Part shown: positions 27,012 to 32,202 of the stretch, piece after piece
How positions within the stretch are numbered: the stretch's first letter is position 1
Layout of the letters: each line of letters opens with the position of its first letter
NCBI GenBank assembly: GCA_002894685.1
Contig: NCRC01000020.1
Span: forward strand, 1 to 63,158
Length of the DNA: 63,158 bases
From: Salinivenus lutea
GTDB lineage: Bacteria > Bacteroidota > Rhodothermia > Rhodothermales > Salinibacteraceae
Reading direction: 5' to 3'
Made by a program: the position numbers and the translations under genes
The notes under the pieces: generated by a model
The model's input: only the letters and a program-made list of their open reading frames with translations
Databases searched by the model: none
What the model was told of the DNA's origin: nothing

Positions 27012-27512
27012 TCACCAGCCGATCGTGCCCGCCCCGCCCTTGAACGGCCCGACGATGTCGTCCGTGATCCATCCGCCGTAAAAATCCCCCTCCTGGGCGC
27101 GAGCCTGCTCCTCGCCCACAAAGCACGCGTCCATTTTGCTGGGATAGAAGGCGAGGTGATCCGCGAGGGCCGCGTAGCGATCGGTGGGGTTTGGGTAGCC
27201 CCATGCGGCCTGCCGGGCCGAGCGGTCCCCGACCGTGGCCGTGTAGTACACGGCGCGCCCCTTGAACTCGCACATTGAGGTCCGCGACTCCCGCTGAAGG
27301 TGCTCCATCGCCACGTCGGCGGGCGGGAGGTAGTAGACCGGCGGGTGGCTCGTTTCGAGCACGCGCAGGGCCTCGGTCGTATCGGCGAGGACCGTATCGT
27401 TGAAGACGACCCGGATGCGCCGTTCCTCTGGCTTCAGGGCCGGCGGGCGCGGGTAGTCCCACACGGATTCCTGGTTCGGGCCGGGGTCGGGACGAGATGT
27501 GGGCGACGGCAT
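27012..27512 (-). CDS. DUF427 domain protein, last gene of the PYP operon
   Basis: A 166-residue protein with the DUF427 pattern: VWDYPRPPALKPEERRIRVVFND, DTTEALRVLETSHPPVYYLPPADV, then RTSMCEFKGRAVYYT and YGGWITDDIVGPFKGGAGTIGW. The family has a small beta-barrel-like fold and no firmly known function. ATG 27512 is chosen because it lies 14 bp after the ammonia-lyase stop and removes a non-conserved extension. The tight spacing indicates cotranscription with the tyrosine ammonia-lyase, coumarate ligase and PYP genes, which suggests, but does not show, a role in chromophore metabolism or light response. Confidence 0.8.
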   Translation of the reverse strand: MPSPTSRPDPGPNQESVWDYPRPPALKPEERRIRVVFNDTVLADTTEALRVLETSHPPVYYLPPADVAMEHLQRESRTSMCEFKGRAVYYTATVGDRSARQAAWGYPNPTDRYAALADHLAFYPSKMDACFVGEEQARAQEGDFYGGWITDDIVGPFKGGAGTIGW

Positions 27513-27526
27513 GTCGGAGGTTTGGG

Positions 27527-29029
27527 CTATGAGGGGGCGGGGAGGCGCCACTCTTGGGCGAGGGCGTCGATCTCGGCGCGGAGGGGCCGGTCCTCCACGA
27601 TCGGTTCTACGGAAGGCATCCAGTCGGGGGGCGGAGGCGCGGGGCCGTCCGCGCAGTCGGCGGCCCGCAGGTGGGTGAGCTGGGCGAGGCTGAGGCCGAG
27701 GACGGCCAGGATTGGGGCGAGGCGCTCGGTTTGTTCGTGGGCCGTGCGGGCGGCCAGGGCCCCCATCGACACGACGTCCTGATTGTCGTTGTTGGTCGGG
27801 ATCGACGAGGTGGCCGCCATCTGTGCGTTCTGTCGGAGCTCGGCCACCAGGGCCGTGGCGGTAAGCTGCGCGCCGGCGAGGCCGCTGGTGGGGCCCGGCG
27901 TCCAGGCGAGGAGGGGCGGTGCCCCGCCGTTCTGATCGGGCGAGAGAAGGACATCGAGTTGACGCTCGGCCAGCACCCCGACCTGGGTGAGGGCTTCGTT
28001 CAGCGCATCGGCGGCAAAGGCGATCTGCTGCCCCTGAAAGTTGCCGCCATGCAGGGCCGCGGGCCCCTCGGGATCGATCACGGGGTTGTCGGTCACCCCG
28101 TTCAGCTCTGTCTCAACTTGATTTCGGGCGTATCGAAACTGATCACGGGCGGCGCCGAGGACCTGCGGGGCGCAGCGGAGGGAGTACACTTCCTGGAGCG
28201 GGCGACTGTCCTGCTCGGCGGCCCCATGGCGGGTTGCCTCCGCCCGGATGGCGGCGGCGCTTGCCTGCTGGCCGTCGTGGCCGCGGGCGGCGTGGAGGCG
28301 GGGCGCGAGGGCCTCCAGCGAGCACCCGAGCAGGCGGTAGGCCCATCCGGTGAGGGCCTCGGCCCGCTCCAGCAGGCGGCGCCCCCGGGCGAGGGCCAGC
28401 GCGGCGGTCCCCGTCATGAACGCGGTGCCGTTCACGAACGCAAGCGCGTCGCGGGCGTCGAGTGAGACGGGCGGGAGATCGGCGTCCTGCAGGGCGGTCG
28501 CGGCGTCCACGAGCGTTCCGTTCTCCTCCAGCATGTGCCCCTGGCCGGTGTACGCCCGGGCCGCGTGGGCCAATGGGGTCAGGTCGCCGCTCGCCCCGAG
28601 CGATCCGATTTCGGGGACGGCGGGCGGCGGCGCCGCGTTCAGCAGACGAAGGAGGGACCGGACGGTCGAGGGACGAATCCCGGAGTGGCCCTGCGCCAGC
28701 GACTGCAGGCGCGACAGGACCATCGCCCGCACGATGTCGGGCGCCGCCCACTCCCCGCTCCCCGTGCTCAGGTGGGCGAGCAGCTGGTCGCTCTGGGCGG
28801 AGGCGTCCTCCGCGGCCGAGTGGTCGAGGAGGGGGCCGAACCCGGTCGTGAGGCCGTAGATCTCGTCCCCGCGCTCGTGTACGTCGGCGAGGGCGTCGCG
28901 CGAGCGCGGAAGGGCCTCGTCCGCGGCGGTCGTGAGCGACCCCTTCGGGACTGGGCGGCGGGCGGCCCGGTCGACCGATTCGCAGGTGAGGGAGGCGTCG
29001 GGGCCGAGGAGAAGGGGCGAGGCAGACAT
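27527..29029 (-). CDS. tal: Tyrosine ammonia-lyase (p-coumarate synthase for PYP)
   Basis: Member of the histidine/phenylalanine ammonia-lyase family, 500 residues, with the self-forming MIO group from Ala146-Ser147-Gly148 in IGSLGASGDLTPLAH and the catalytic Tyr58 in YGLTTGFGPL. The substrate-selectivity pair is His86-Leu87 (LLAHLSTG), equivalent to His89-Leu90 of Rhodobacter tyrosine ammonia-lyase; histidine lyases have Ser-His there. It would convert tyrosine to p-coumaric acid and ammonia. It follows the coumarate ligase gene by only 9 bp, and PYP lies just upstream, so it supplies the PYP chromophore rather than degrading histidine. No hutU, hutI or hutG is present. Confidence 0.85.
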   Translation of the reverse strand: MSASPLLLGPDASLTCESVDRAARRPVPKGSLTTAADEALPRSRDALADVHERGDEIYGLTTGFGPLLDHSAAEDASAQSDQLLAHLSTGSGEWAAPDIVRAMVLSRLQSLAQGHSGIRPSTVRSLLRLLNAAPPPAVPEIGSLGASGDLTPLAHAARAYTGQGHMLEENGTLVDAATALQDADLPPVSLDARDALAFVNGTAFMTGTAALALARGRRLLERAEALTGWAYRLLGCSLEALAPRLHAARGHDGQQASAAAIRAEATRHGAAEQDSRPLQEVYSLRCAPQVLGAARDQFRYARNQVETELNGVTDNPVIDPEGPAALHGGNFQGQQIAFAADALNEALTQVGVLAERQLDVLLSPDQNGGAPPLLAWTPGPTSGLAGAQLTATALVAELRQNAQMAATSSIPTNNDNQDVVSMGALAARTAHEQTERLAPILAVLGLSLAQLTHLRAADCADGPAPPPPDWMPSVEPIVEDRPLRAEIDALAQEWRLPAPS

Positions 29030-29038
29030 GAGGGCGAC

Positions 29039-30589
29039 CTAGGGCGACGAAGGAGTTTTGGAGCGGTAGGCCTCCGACAAAGAGGCACTCATCGCGCGGC
29101 GGTCGACGGTGCCCTTGGACTGCGTCTGCCAGGCCTCCGGGGCCACCGTGGTGTGCCAGACGAGGCGGCTGCCAAGCGAGCCGAGGGTGGCTCGGAGGGC
29201 GTCCAGGTCGGGCACCTCGGCGGTGGGCGACTGGGGACAGAGGGCGACCGCTACGTTGTCGCCGTCGGGGGTGAAGAGCAGCGCATCGCGAAGGGTGGCG
29301 TACGTCGTCTTGAGGGTCGACTCCAGGACGCCGGCCGGGACGAAGCGGCCGTTGGAGAGTTTGAAGGACGCGTCCTTCCGCCCCCGAAAGACAAGGCCGT
29401 CGTCACCGCGCTCCACCAGATCTCCCGTATGGACCGTGCGGGTCGGGTCGAGGCGTTCGAGGCGGCCGTCGCGCCAGTAGCCCACGCAGGCATTCGGGCC
29501 GTCAAACAGCAGTTCTCCGTCGTCCGCAATTGTGACGTTGCAGCCGACCGGGCGTCCCAGGTAGTGGGGGCCCCACTCGCCGCGCGCCCCAAGGGCAATG
29601 CCGGGCGAGGCTTCCGTTTGTCCGTACCCGGCCCGCAGGGAGGTGTCGGCGAGGGTGGTGGCGAGGGGGGCAGATACCGGCGCGCCGCCCACAATCCCGC
29701 CCTGCAGGTCGCGCACGAGGGCCCGGCCCGCCGAGTGGTCGAGCAGGCGCTGGATGGTGAGGGGGACGGCCGACAGATGCGTGGTGCCCCAGGCGTCCCG
29801 CAGGGACACCAGTCCGTCAGGGTTGCGTCCCCCGTCGGGGTCCCGGATCAGTTCGGCGTCCGCCAGAAGGGCGGGCAGGAGGTCGAGGACCAGCCCGAAG
29901 GCGTGGGTCCAGGGAAGAACGGAGAGCACCCGGGCGTTGCGGAGCGCGAGGTGCGGCAGGTGACTGGCCAGTACGGAGAGCACGTTGCGGTCCGAGAGGG
30001 CGACCCAGCGCCCGTGGTGGGTGCCGGAGGTCCGGAGGAGGAAGCGGACGTCGGGGGTCGGCTCTTCTCGGGGGGACCGCAGGGCCTCGGGGGTGGAGCG
30101 CGGACCGGCGAACTCGTCGGAGGCCCAGGCGTGGGGCCCGCCGTCGGGCGTCACCGCGGCGCGGGCGTCGAGCGGAGAGAGAAGAGACTCGGCGTCCGTG
30201 TCCGGCGGGGCGAACGCCACCGTGAGCTGCTCCCAGAGCGCGGCGACGAGGACCTGAACGAAGGCTGTGGAGGGCGGAAGGCTAAGGACGAGCCGGTCGC
30301 CCGGCTGCAGGTCGTGTGCGCGGAACGTATCGACCCAGAGGCGGGAGCCCGTCCAGAGGGAGGCGGCCGGGGTGATGGTGTCGTCCGCGATGAGGGCCGG
30401 GAGCGGCTCGTCGCAGAGGCGGTCGTGGAGCAGGTCGTGCCAGGGGTTGGGCGAGGCGGGGGCCGGTGTGGACGTGGGCGGGGGGCACTGATCCAGGGCC
30501 GCTCGGACGGCCGCCACGGCGTCGGGGGCATCCGACGTCTGGGGAAGGCCGGTCGACTCCGACGAGTCCGAGGTGCCGTTCATCCGCAT
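29039..30589 (-). CDS. pcl: p-Coumarate:CoA ligase-like adenylate-forming enzyme
   Basis: AMP-binding enzyme of 516 residues that would activate p-coumarate to its CoA thioester for attachment to PYP. Adenylation motifs are visible: RAGYGQTEASPG (A5), VHTGDLVERGDDGLVFRGRKD (A7-A8), FKLSNGRFVPAGVLES, and a late lysine in QSKGTVDRR (A10). The P-loop, normally TSGTTGxPKG, is degenerate: TSGTHHGRWVALS, lacking the Pro-Lys-Gly. Function is inferred mainly from position between PYP and the ammonia-lyase, a known gene partnership. Start ATG is 30589 or 30583. The gap to PYP is 60 bp and carries AGTTATCAC at 30604-30612. Confidence 0.82.
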   Translation of the reverse strand: MRMNGTSDSSESTGLPQTSDAPDAVAAVRAALDQCPPPTSTPAPASPNPWHDLLHDRLCDEPLPALIADDTITPAASLWTGSRLWVDTFRAHDLQPGDRLVLSLPPSTAFVQVLVAALWEQLTVAFAPPDTDAESLLSPLDARAAVTPDGGPHAWASDEFAGPRSTPEALRSPREEPTPDVRFLLRTSGTHHGRWVALSDRNVLSVLASHLPHLALRNARVLSVLPWTHAFGLVLDLLPALLADAELIRDPDGGRNPDGLVSLRDAWGTTHLSAVPLTIQRLLDHSAGRALVRDLQGGIVGGAPVSAPLATTLADTSLRAGYGQTEASPGIALGARGEWGPHYLGRPVGCNVTIADDGELLFDGPNACVGYWRDGRLERLDPTRTVHTGDLVERGDDGLVFRGRKDASFKLSNGRFVPAGVLESTLKTTYATLRDALLFTPDGDNVAVALCPQSPTAEVPDLDALRATLGSLGSRLVWHTTVAPEAWQTQSKGTVDRRAMSASLSEAYRSKTPSSP

Positions 30590-30649: not shown

Positions 30650-31120
30650 TTAATACTTCTGGACCAGAATCCAATTGTTGCCCGCCTCGTCGCGATACAG
30701 GTGCACGTCCACGAGCGTCGGTCGCATCTTGTAGGTGTACGTGTAGCTGAACACCTCGTCGAGGTCGCCCCGCCGCACCCCTCGCTTAAAGCGTCCCCAA
30801 AACAGGCGGTTGTTCGTACACGGGGCCACCTGCGTGAAGAAGTTGCGGTCGATGGCCTCCTCCGGGGGGACGCCGCTCAGCTTGGACTCATAGTCGTTGA
30901 AAAACTGCACGACCCCGTCGTCATCAATCCGAATGATGCCAAACGACACGGCATTGAGTTCCTCTTCGGGGACGTGCCGGAGCTTCTCGCCGAGAGCGTC
31001 GTCCTCAAACTGCAGATCGTCCGCGGAAAGGCCATCTGCGGGCTCCTCAGACGACTCCGCCGGATCCGAGTCGAGGACCGAGGCGTCGTCGGGCGTATGC
31101 TGTGCGTCGTTCTCAGACAC
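30650..31120 (-). CDS. pyp: Photoactive yellow protein (blue-light photoreceptor)
   Basis: PAS-fold photoreceptor that binds p-coumarate as a thioester on a Cys. The sequence from NAVSFGIIRIDDDG to the end WILVQKY follows Halorhodospira PYP closely, with NFFTQVAPCT containing chromophore Cys101 (Cys69 in Halorhodospira numbering). Glu78 matches Glu46, which hydrogen-bonds the chromophore, while Tyr42 is Phe74, Thr50 is Ser82 and Arg52 is Val84. A GTG at 31120 is the only plausible start; it gives 156 residues with an acidic, halophile-type N-terminal extension of about 32. The longer open frame upstream overlaps the previous gene and is not coding. It is the second gene of the operon. Confidence 0.93.
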   Translation of the reverse strand: MSENDAQHTPDDASVLDSDPAESSEEPADGLSADDLQFEDDALGEKLRHVPEEELNAVSFGIIRIDDDGVVQFFNDYESKLSGVPPEEAIDRNFFTQVAPCTNNRLFWGRFKRGVRRGDLDEVFSYTYTYKMRPTLVDVHLYRDEAGNNWILVQKY

Positions 31121-31167: not shown

Positions 31168-32202
31168 CTACGTCGGCCGAAACAGAATCCAGTCGCCGGA
31201 CGCATCCTGGGGGCGGTACAGTTGAACGAGCAGGGTCGTGGTGGTGTCCGCTCCCGCGTAGGTGTACAGAAAGCAGGTGTTGGCGGGGGTGTCGTCCTGG
31301 GGGAAGCGGCGGAACAGAGCGGTATCGGACCCGGGCGCGGCGCGGTCGTCGAATGGGCGGCCGGCCAGGGCGTCGGCACGATCGGCCGAGAAGCCGGGCC
31401 ACTGAAGGGCCGCGCGGTTGGCGCGTTGAATGATGCCGTCGTCGTCCACACGGAGGGCGCCCGCCGGTACGGCATCGAGGGCGTCGTCGTCCATGTCGTC
31501 GAGCCGGTGGAGCGTGTGGGGAGGGAGCAGCGGGTCGTCCACCGTGTGACGACGGCGCTCGGCGTACAGATCCACCAGTTGGTCCTCCATACGGTCGATC
31601 AGCTCGAGCGTACGGTCGAGGTCGTCGATCCCGTGCGCGGCCAGCTGTTCTCGGTCGGCAGACAGCGCATCGAGCTGTTCGGAAAGGCGGCGGACCATCG
31701 CAAGAACGGCGTCGGGGTCCGAGGCGTCCAGCTCCGCCTGCGTCCGCTCAGATTGGGAATTAGAACCGTCGAGGAAGGCGTCCGGGGACGGGGGGGCGTC
31801 GGCGTCTCGTTCGGCGTACAGCACATCCAGTTGGTCGGTCAGGCCTTCCACCATCTCTACGACGGCGTCGGGCGAGCGTACGCCGAGGGCCCGCTGCAGC
31901 TTGTCCTCGCGGGCCAGGAGGAACTGAAGCTGCTCGTACGTGTCCTGGTCGTGTTCGTCCTCCGCGGCGGCCCGGGCGGTGGAGGCTTTTTCGGTGTAGA
32001 GGTCGTCCAGCTGGGCCTCCATGCTCTCCATCGCCTGCAGGGCGTCCTCAAAGCGACTGAAGTTAGAGTGCGAGAGTGCGGTCTGCAGGGTTCGCATCCG
32101 GGGCACCACCGCCTGCGGCTCCGACACCGACAGGAGGTCCATGAGGTCCTCCCACTGGTCCTGGTACCAGGAGTCGTCGGGCCGGTCGGGGGACTCAGTC
32201 AT
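31168..32202 (-). CDS. Coiled-coil protein with chromophore-less PYP-like PAS domain
   Basis: A 344-residue acidic protein. Residues 1-220 are helical and contain four copies of a 20-residue unit of the form D-A-x-x-x-M-x-x-x-x-x-QLDxLYAE(R/K) (Gln at 64, 124, 176, 208). Residues 232-344 align along their length with the PYP encoded next: DALDAVPAGALRVDDDGIIQ against NAVSFGIIRIDDDG, FLYTYAG against FSYTYTY, and a WIL ending. The chromophore Cys is Gly291 (AAPG), and the Tyr42 and Glu46 positions are both Ala, so it should not bind coumarate. It is the first gene of the operon, 47 bp before PYP. A signalling partner of PYP is my inference. Confidence 0.75.
   Translation of the reverse strand: MTESPDRPDDSWYQDQWEDLMDLLSVSEPQAVVPRMRTLQTALSHSNFSRFEDALQAMESMEAQLDDLYTEKASTARAAAEDEHDQDTYEQLQFLLAREDKLQRALGVRSPDAVVEMVEGLTDQLDVLYAERDADAPPSPDAFLDGSNSQSERTQAELDASDPDAVLAMVRRLSEQLDALSADREQLAAHGIDDLDRTLELIDRMEDQLVDLYAERRRHTVDDPLLPPHTLHRLDDMDDDALDAVPAGALRVDDDGIIQRANRAALQWPGFSADRADALAGRPFDDRAAPGSDTALFRRFPQDDTPANTCFLYTYAGADTTTTLLVQLYRPQDASGDWILFRPT

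Follow-up and report, generated by a model that had tools for sequence, protein, structure and literature searches.

A chromophore-less PYP-like domain fused to helical repeats beside pyp in Salinivenus: a candidate adaptor of the PYP pathway

PYP ranks with the most intensively studied photoreceptors, yet in the accessible parts of PMC9664959 and PMC13250908 its partner is described as unidentified. In the window, the 63,158 nt of Salinivenus lutea DNA analysed here, the gene directly upstream of pyp encodes a PYP-like domain without the chromophore site. An earlier note had read it as a PYP paralogue, duplicated next to pyp and fused to a coiled coil, that could pair with PYP and pass on its state. 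The features concerned are as follows.

31168..32202, minus strand: dark gene (putative PYP adaptor), 344 aa and stop; ATG at 32202, stop at 31168-31170
32098..32202 (borders approximate), minus strand: N-terminal cap with WYxxxW motif, from alignment A6; common to the S. ruber-like short protein
31987..32049, minus strand: helical repeat 1, partial (hp HMM, 24.1 bits)
31807..31938, minus strand: helical repeat 2 (hp HMM, 61.7 bits)
31651..31749, minus strand: helical repeat 3, overlapping repeat 4 (hp HMM, 22.5 bits)
31555..31683, minus strand: helical repeat 4 (hp HMM, 52.3 bits)
31171..31527 (borders approximate), minus strand: chromophore-less PYP-like domain, residues 226-344 (TIGR02373, PDB and 25-member dark profile)
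31330..31332, minus strand: codon of Gly291, at the chromophore-binding Cys69 position (alignment with PYP)
30650..31120, minus strand: pyp, photoactive PYP; Cys69 and Glu46 present, Phe at 42
29039..30589, minus strand: AMP-binding enzyme (PF00501, E 8.1e-21)
27527..29029, minus strand: aromatic amino acid lyase (PF00221, E 1.6e-133)
27012..27551, minus strand: DUF427 (NTP_transf_9) gene, a frequent neighbour of the operon (PF04248, E 4.7e-35)

The dark gene, pyp, the AMP-binding enzyme and the lyase lie on the same strand, which suggests a single transcript; pyp likely begins with a GTG at 31120, 47 nt past the dark gene, and is followed by spacers of 60 nt before the AMP-binding enzyme and 9 nt between this and the lyase. 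By analogy with known pyp operons, the two enzymes are probably a p-coumarate:CoA ligase (pCL) and a tyrosine ammonia lyase (TAL), respectively. Most loci of the window's kind have a DUF427 gene after TAL or pCL, including those from which pyp is missing. The PYP and the dark protein are 99% and 97% identical to those of Salinivenus iranica CB7, and the host appears to be a sister species of S. iranica.

The earlier description of a PYP-like domain with a lost site is borne out at these positions, with the addition that the gene is on the minus strand, which had been omitted. Residues 1-225 comprise the helical repeats and the N-terminal cap, so the fusion of a helical region to a PYP-like part (residues 226-344) is likewise confirmed, as is the loss of the three chromophore contacts: in Halorhodospira halophila numbering, Cys69, Tyr42 and Glu46 are replaced by Gly291, Ala261 and Ala265. 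Position 50 is occupied by Pro269. One correction is that the neighbouring photoactive PYP has Phe, rather than Tyr, at position 42. The note had also proposed that a profile search favouring generic PAS families would count against it, and this comparison came out in favour of PYP. The alignment with PYP spans the whole length of the domain; phmmer against the PDB gives a PYP as the best match (E 5e-5, residues 234-340), and TIGR02373, the NCBIfam PYP model, matches with E 2e-6 and 27.9 bits, although its curated cut-off of 143.05 bits is reached neither by the dark domain nor by the neighbouring PYP (105 bits). Pfam PAS_4 (E 1.2e-3, 19.5 bits against a gathering cut-off of 23.1) and PAS_8 (16.3 bits against 21.8) both fall short, and a generic PAS domain was rejected on these scores. 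The 25-member dark profile matches 33 PDB chain sequences at E <= 1e-3 (best E 6.5e-25), all of them PYP, PYP portions of Ppr or tags derived from PYP. On its profile matches, the domain is closer to PYP than to other PAS families. It shares with PYP (TIGR02373, or PAS_PYP of PMC9664959) the fold signature and whole-length alignment, but differs in lacking Cys69, Tyr/Phe42 and Glu46, in being fused to helical repeats and in scoring below the TIGR02373 cut-off. The window's copy is reduced, without the residues around a 'GRFxxG' stretch that most of 25 aligned relatives keep.

Loss of the site extends to the whole group of 27 dark domains, in which the window and L053 are counted apart. Position 69 is Ser in 13, Gly in seven, Ala in six and Asp in one, and never Cys; position 42 is Ala (14), Leu (7), Val (5) or Ile (1). 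At position 46, Ala predominates (21), with two Gly and one each of His, Gln, Asp and Glu, and position 50 is Pro in 24, Gly in two and Leu in one. As the Glu46 and Asp46 domains are the two from other families (L064 and L065), the loss common to all dark domains is that of Cys69 and Tyr/Phe42. By comparison, Cys69 and Glu46 are present in 34/34 Rhodothermales PYPs. The PYP core positions F62, F63, P68, F75, F79, F92, Y94 and W119 are retained in the dark group, and the PYP loop 97-103 is largely unconserved. Judged from these residues, a dark domain is unable to bind p-coumarate through Cys69.

PYP-like domains without Cys69 are also described in the available text of PMC9664959, mainly as methylobacterial Ppr-PYP for which neofunctionalisation is proposed; many of these are found in Ppr-type kinases, and the same portions describe neither helical repeats nor pairing with a neighbouring photoactive pyp for them. 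Some Salinibacter dark domains may be included in the data sets of that paper. PMC9664959 and PMC12826048 survey PYP homologues, Cys69 losses and operons, and in the parts of both that are available there is no mention of a helical partner, a Salinibacter dark PYP beside pyp, or the companion domain n17 described below. In the main text, the word 'coiled' is absent from PMC12826048 and 'coiled coil' from PMC9664959, and a search of open-licence literature turned up nothing on a PYP-CheA fusion or on a dark or helical partner of PYP.

In a maximum likelihood tree of 96 domains, limited by its few columns (129) and long branches, the dark domains form one group (support 100/95) beside a separate group of the Rhodothermales PYPs (98/89). 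The tree leaves out L070-L086, which are the places of G-numbered loci, L120-L122, whose genes are those of L104, L096 and L094, the PYP fragment L068 and the generic PAS kinase L069. The 27 dark domains cover three Rhodothermales families, and the dark and PYP subtrees have the same first split, with the two other families branching first. Forcing the dark domain and PYP of the window together with their S. iranica orthologues is rejected (p-AU 0.0115), and a single group of dark domains and Rhodothermales PYPs is not rejected (p-AU 0.466), the groups for these tests having been picked after the tree was seen. A recent local duplication, which the earlier note had considered the simplest origin, is rejected on the tree and the AU test; that part of its interpretation is not supported, while the kinship with PYP, the lost contacts, the helical fusion and the linkage to pyp all stand. 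An early duplication within the Rhodothermales lineage is possible, given the second of these results, and the topology and AU tests make the loss of the chromophore site look single and old.

The dark profile matches 22 of 114 genomes of the order at E <= 1e-5, comprising 21 with PYP and one, G056, in which the match is a generic PAS kinase and which was left out of the PYP-positive genomes for this reason. A dark domain is found in 15 of the 21, the exceptions being G002-G006 and G010. Twenty-two of the 27 dark genes lie directly 5' of pyp and two directly 3'; the remaining three (L051, L057 and L058) do not adjoin it, L058 stopping 0.8 kb before a contig end. An additional pyp with no dark gene near it, as far as the fetched stretch goes, occurs in Longimonas halophila (G014) and in its relative G021. 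In the two other families (G064 and G076) the gene order is dark-pyp-pCL-TAL, and in G076 pCL and TAL lie within one 1023-codon reading frame (L065:4807-7878). As 19 of the 21 PYP genomes of the order belong to one family, both linkage and co-occurrence are confounded by kinship. The counts do not represent independent events, since pairs and genomes are related, and several genomes are incomplete.

Two kinds of locus can be distinguished within the Salinibacteraceae. Short dark genes (344-614 codons) are accompanied by all of pyp, pCL, TAL and DUF427 in 8/10 cases, and long dark genes (783-1225 codons) by pyp, with n17 in 9/10 and TerC in 4/10 of the fetched stretches. The PYP residue 42 is Phe beside 9/10 short dark genes and Tyr beside 6/10 long ones, so a clean rule pairing short with Phe42 and long with Tyr42 fails. 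A third dark paralogue of 356-390 codons, with a strongly diverged PYP-like domain, is found directly after pyp in two genomes (L043:10536-11606 and L047:11059-12231), and G008 carries a PYP fragment of about 40 matched residues away from its intact pyp genes (L068:7515-7895).

The helical part of the protein is built of a 32-residue unit, with copies 31-33 residues apart where one directly follows another and mostly 46-80 elsewhere. The 27 Rhodothermales dark proteins, the window's among them, yielded 61 units, and the HMM built from these (hp) was used to scan 34 PYP loci outside the order, in 6,397 stop-to-stop frames covering 362,606 bases; the near-identical pairs L090/L091 and L109/L110 were counted apart. 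A match with E < 1e-3 within 1 kb of pyp is found in 24 of the 34, that of L107 being inside the PYP frame itself; L098 has one 4.7 kb away, so that 24 of the 25 loci matching at this level have it close to pyp. Six further loci match with E between 1e-3 and 0.1, five of them in the N-terminus of the PYP frame, where those of Bdellovibrionota are weak (E 0.005-0.07), and the element is absent from L102, L112 and L123 by the hp HMM. A second matching frame is present in only one of the 31 loci with any match at E <= 1. A rough binomial estimate for this placement arising by chance is 7e-14, for an assumed p of 0.25, and in control sequence of 114,239 bases, including the window, matches occur in the dark gene and nowhere else. 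The outside loci were detected chiefly with patterns taken from Rhodothermales PYPs, and are thus biased towards similar PYPs rather than a fair sample; five proteobacterial plasmid stretches of about 8 kb each, holding six PYPs, showed no trace of the element or of n17.

By record labels, the outside loci with the element span about ten phyla: Spirochaetota, Ignavibacteriota, Kapaibacteria, Armatimonadota, Planctomycetota, Myxococcota, Gemmatimonadota, Bdellovibrionota, Verrucomicrobiota, Pseudomonadota, Hydrogenedentota and others. There it is often a short protein of no known family. Twelve such members in alignment A7 are 47-85 aa from the nearest Met, others reaching 261 codons, and in Leptospiraceae the short protein comes first, followed by pyp, the AMP-binding enzyme and the aromatic lyase. 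The A7 consensus is EQLxxLYxEKExLExxLGxSxxExIIAMxRSLEEQLxxLY, and from sequence the element reads as a putative helical hairpin. Pfam on the 15 A7 members returned four unrelated families, one member each, and NCBIfam none. The A7 profile is a mixed one, as three of its 15 rows come from the window and S. ruber-like genomes; it matches all 21 PYP genomes of the order and none of the 93 others; in the phylum sample it matches 10/394 genomes, all with PYP, and gives no match in the PYP genomes G374 and the divergent G444, these searches having scored part of the candidates in some genomes. The window gene, with four hp matches and pyp immediately downstream, is itself such a PYP-adjacent helical element. 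A plain coiled coil was rejected as a description since the repeat unit marks PYP loci. The helical region had been recognised correctly in the earlier note, which missed that its repeats are found beside pyp in other phyla; this leaves the helical part no weaker a candidate for contacting PYP than the dark domain.

A second companion of pyp is n17, a domain of about 140 aa without a Pfam family, which is encoded divergently beside most long dark genes (L035:10122-10565 and homologues). In the window's genome it lies beside TerC on another contig than the dark gene (G000:C32:18180-18605). It is present in 21/21 PYP genomes of the order against 1/93 others (G062, weaker), and in 12/394 genomes of the phylum sample, which are ten PYP genomes and the PYP-less G154 and G231 (weak). 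Outside the order, 27 of 32 PYP genomes from the scan have n17 and in the other five it was not found; in 16 of 32 loci it falls within the stretch fetched around pyp. The n17 profile has a single PDB match (E 0.35), Pfam returned nothing for 11 members of alignment A5, and NCBIfam gave nothing for one of two n17 proteins and a weak sub-cut-off match for the other. Ten long n17 proteins were scanned, of which two have CheW, four have no informative domain and four, from Bdellovibrionota, are CheA-like: these combine HATPase_c and Hpt domains, the Hpt of one scoring under its cut-off, with a C-terminal n17, are encoded directly before pyp and had no CheW domain called. In L089 (Armatimonadota), one of the four without an informative domain, coiled-coil sequence follows n17, and the element protein and pyp come next.

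These fusions suggest a CheA-type output elsewhere than in the window's organism. No CheW domain (PF01584, E <= 1e-5) was found in the window's genome, an assembly that is 99.59% complete, or in 14 of the 15 dark-bearing genomes as a whole, and one is present in four of the six PYP genomes that have no dark domain in the order (Fisher 0.011, ignoring kinship and incomplete assemblies). CheA-type phototaxis is accordingly unlikely as the output here. This separates the present case from the single-domain PYP of Leptospira, likened to CetA/CetB in the accessible part of PMC9664959: there too a separate protein encoded nearby is thought to receive the signal, but that partner is a chemoreceptor. 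Similarly, Ppr-CheW in Rhodocista centenaria, as given in the available portion of PMC2993699, physically links a PYP-containing protein to chemotaxis proteins, which agrees with the CheA-like n17 fusions, but in that case CheW binding is by a kinase domain within a fusion protein, whereas here the repeat, dark and n17 parts are separate.

The site between the phosphohexomutase gene (PGM_PMM domains in the window) and pCL presents a graded series in several genomes of the genus. With pyp and TAL, the dark gene has 542-568 codons in G001 and G008 and 344-345 in the window and S. iranica; in G011 it has 364-402 codons, depending on the start, and both pyp and TAL are absent. The six genomes without a dark domain, which we take to be S. 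ruber-like and to include Salinibacter altiplanensis (G006), have in its place a protein of 94-99 aa consisting of the N-terminal cap and one repeat, without a PYP-like domain. Its locus lacks pyp in 6/6 and TAL in 5/6, the contig of the sixth ending there, and pyp is located elsewhere in these genomes, beside n17. The reading frames of the short protein are:

L034:5475-5930: S. ruber-like short-protein ORF
L036:4674-5330: S. ruber-like short-protein ORF
L037:5059-5373: S. ruber-like short-protein ORF
L040:6222-6521: S. ruber-like short-protein ORF
L042:6095-6397: S. ruber-like short-protein ORF
L050:5787-6080: S. ruber-like short-protein ORF

The dN/dS of this protein is 0.08-0.39 in 13 of 15 pairs, with dS saturated in the other two. 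A short repeat protein under purifying selection where there is no dark domain means that the helical part outlives the dark domain. Between the window and S. iranica, on few changes, dN/dS is 0.185 for the dark gene, 0.061 for pyp and 0.195 for the dark domain alone (7 nonsynonymous and 12 synonymous), and a pseudogene was rejected on the value for the gene. At 94% identity between the two nearest species, against 99% for PYP, the dark domain evolves faster.

The preferred reading, tentative and falling just short of an even chance, is that the window protein serves the PYP pathway as an adaptor and carries a PYP mimic that is permanently insensitive to light. The architecture, the absence of the site throughout the group, the linkage, the co-occurrence and the selection are observed, whereas all binding steps and the direction of the switch are inferred. 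The helical element would contact PYP or relay its state, the repeats and n17 together reading it, and the dark domain would be an old PYP duplicate held in cis as the mimic. In the dark, this mimic would occupy the site used by PYP on the repeats or on the n17 protein; in the light, activated PYP from the same gene cluster would displace or replace it. The parts differ in strength: that the helical element is a true PYP partner seems probable, and the dark domain's role as competitor is plausible without being probable. Counted for the adaptor reading are the linkage of the dark gene to pyp, the shared first split, the loss of Cys69 in 27/27, the co-occurrence of element and n17 and the S. 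ruber-like series. Counted against it are the three unlinked dark genes of 27, the second pyps (G014 and G021) and the six PYP genomes without a dark domain, as well as kinship confounding, scan bias, PYP loci without the element, the gaps in n17 and its presence in PYP-less genomes.

The model of the earlier note, in which the dark domain heterodimerises with photoactive PYP and the light state passes through the dimer into the helical part, would fit with the tendency of PAS domains to dimerise, the retention of the core positions from F62 to W119, the gene linkage and the matching first splits. It nevertheless appears unlikely, as the dark domain is present in 0/32 of the stretches fetched for outside PYP loci (L087-L118), most of which have the helical element, the S. 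ruber-like genomes retain the element without it, and loop 97-103 is largely unconserved in the dark group. Since the element occurs without a dark domain in both settings, signalling through it cannot generally need a PYP heterodimer. It is more doubtful still that the dark domain works as a PAS sensor of some other ligand, through which the protein would integrate light via PYP with a second cue. The pocket is not drifting freely, with Ala46 in 21/27 and Pro50 in 24/27, and Cys69-changed PYP homologues have been proposed as redox sensors in the accessible part of PMC9664959; against this, position 69 is variable, and among the few neighbours identified none that recurs makes a ligand, apart from the chromophore genes.

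A relic with a structural role only, such as a folding cap for repeats that do all the work, would account for the faster evolution of the dark domain and for its absence from the six S. ruber-like genomes, where PYP, n17 and the short repeat protein are all retained. However, the domain is found in three families of the order and has a dN/dS of 0.195, on few changes, making this explanation improbable. The last alternative, that the element matches outside the order are a generic coiled-coil resemblance whose adjacency reflects the chromophore operon only, has some basis in the weak matches in the N-terminus of Bdellovibrionota PYPs and in the longest dark protein, which matches SMC/Rad50 coiled-coil models far under their cut-offs. 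It is barely credible in view of the proximity to pyp in 24/25 loci, a second matching frame in 1/31, control matches confined to the dark gene, and the absence of matches from all 93 PYP-less genomes of the order.

A wider extension of the adaptor reading is possible, if rather speculative: many PYPs may act via one module, composed of a short pyp-adjacent helical protein and n17, that connects them to different outputs such as the CheA-like kinases of Bdellovibrionota, with a Rhodothermales scaffold having captured a blinded PYP copy. The short protein would in this lineage have grown into a repeat scaffold of up to about 1200 residues, and the captured copy would act as an internal competitor in the dark state, comparable among photoreceptors to a pseudokinase. 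The dark domain would be the paralogue of a photoreceptor, retained for its shape once the chromophore was lost, and the S. ruber-like genomes, with the helical part kept and the dark domain gone, provide a natural comparison. The short helical protein, the dark adaptor and n17, being pyp-adjacent in many groups, are specific, small and expressible candidates for a PYP partner, which makes the question of that partner testable at the bench.

Among the Rhodothermales PYPs themselves, a conserved N-terminal motif is observed (LYSFLxx, PYSYLRE or xSxLDxx; alignment A4, columns 195-210), for example in L063:9358-9891 and L059:14613-15239 among others. It precedes an acidic, probably disordered linker, and is a possible docking motif.
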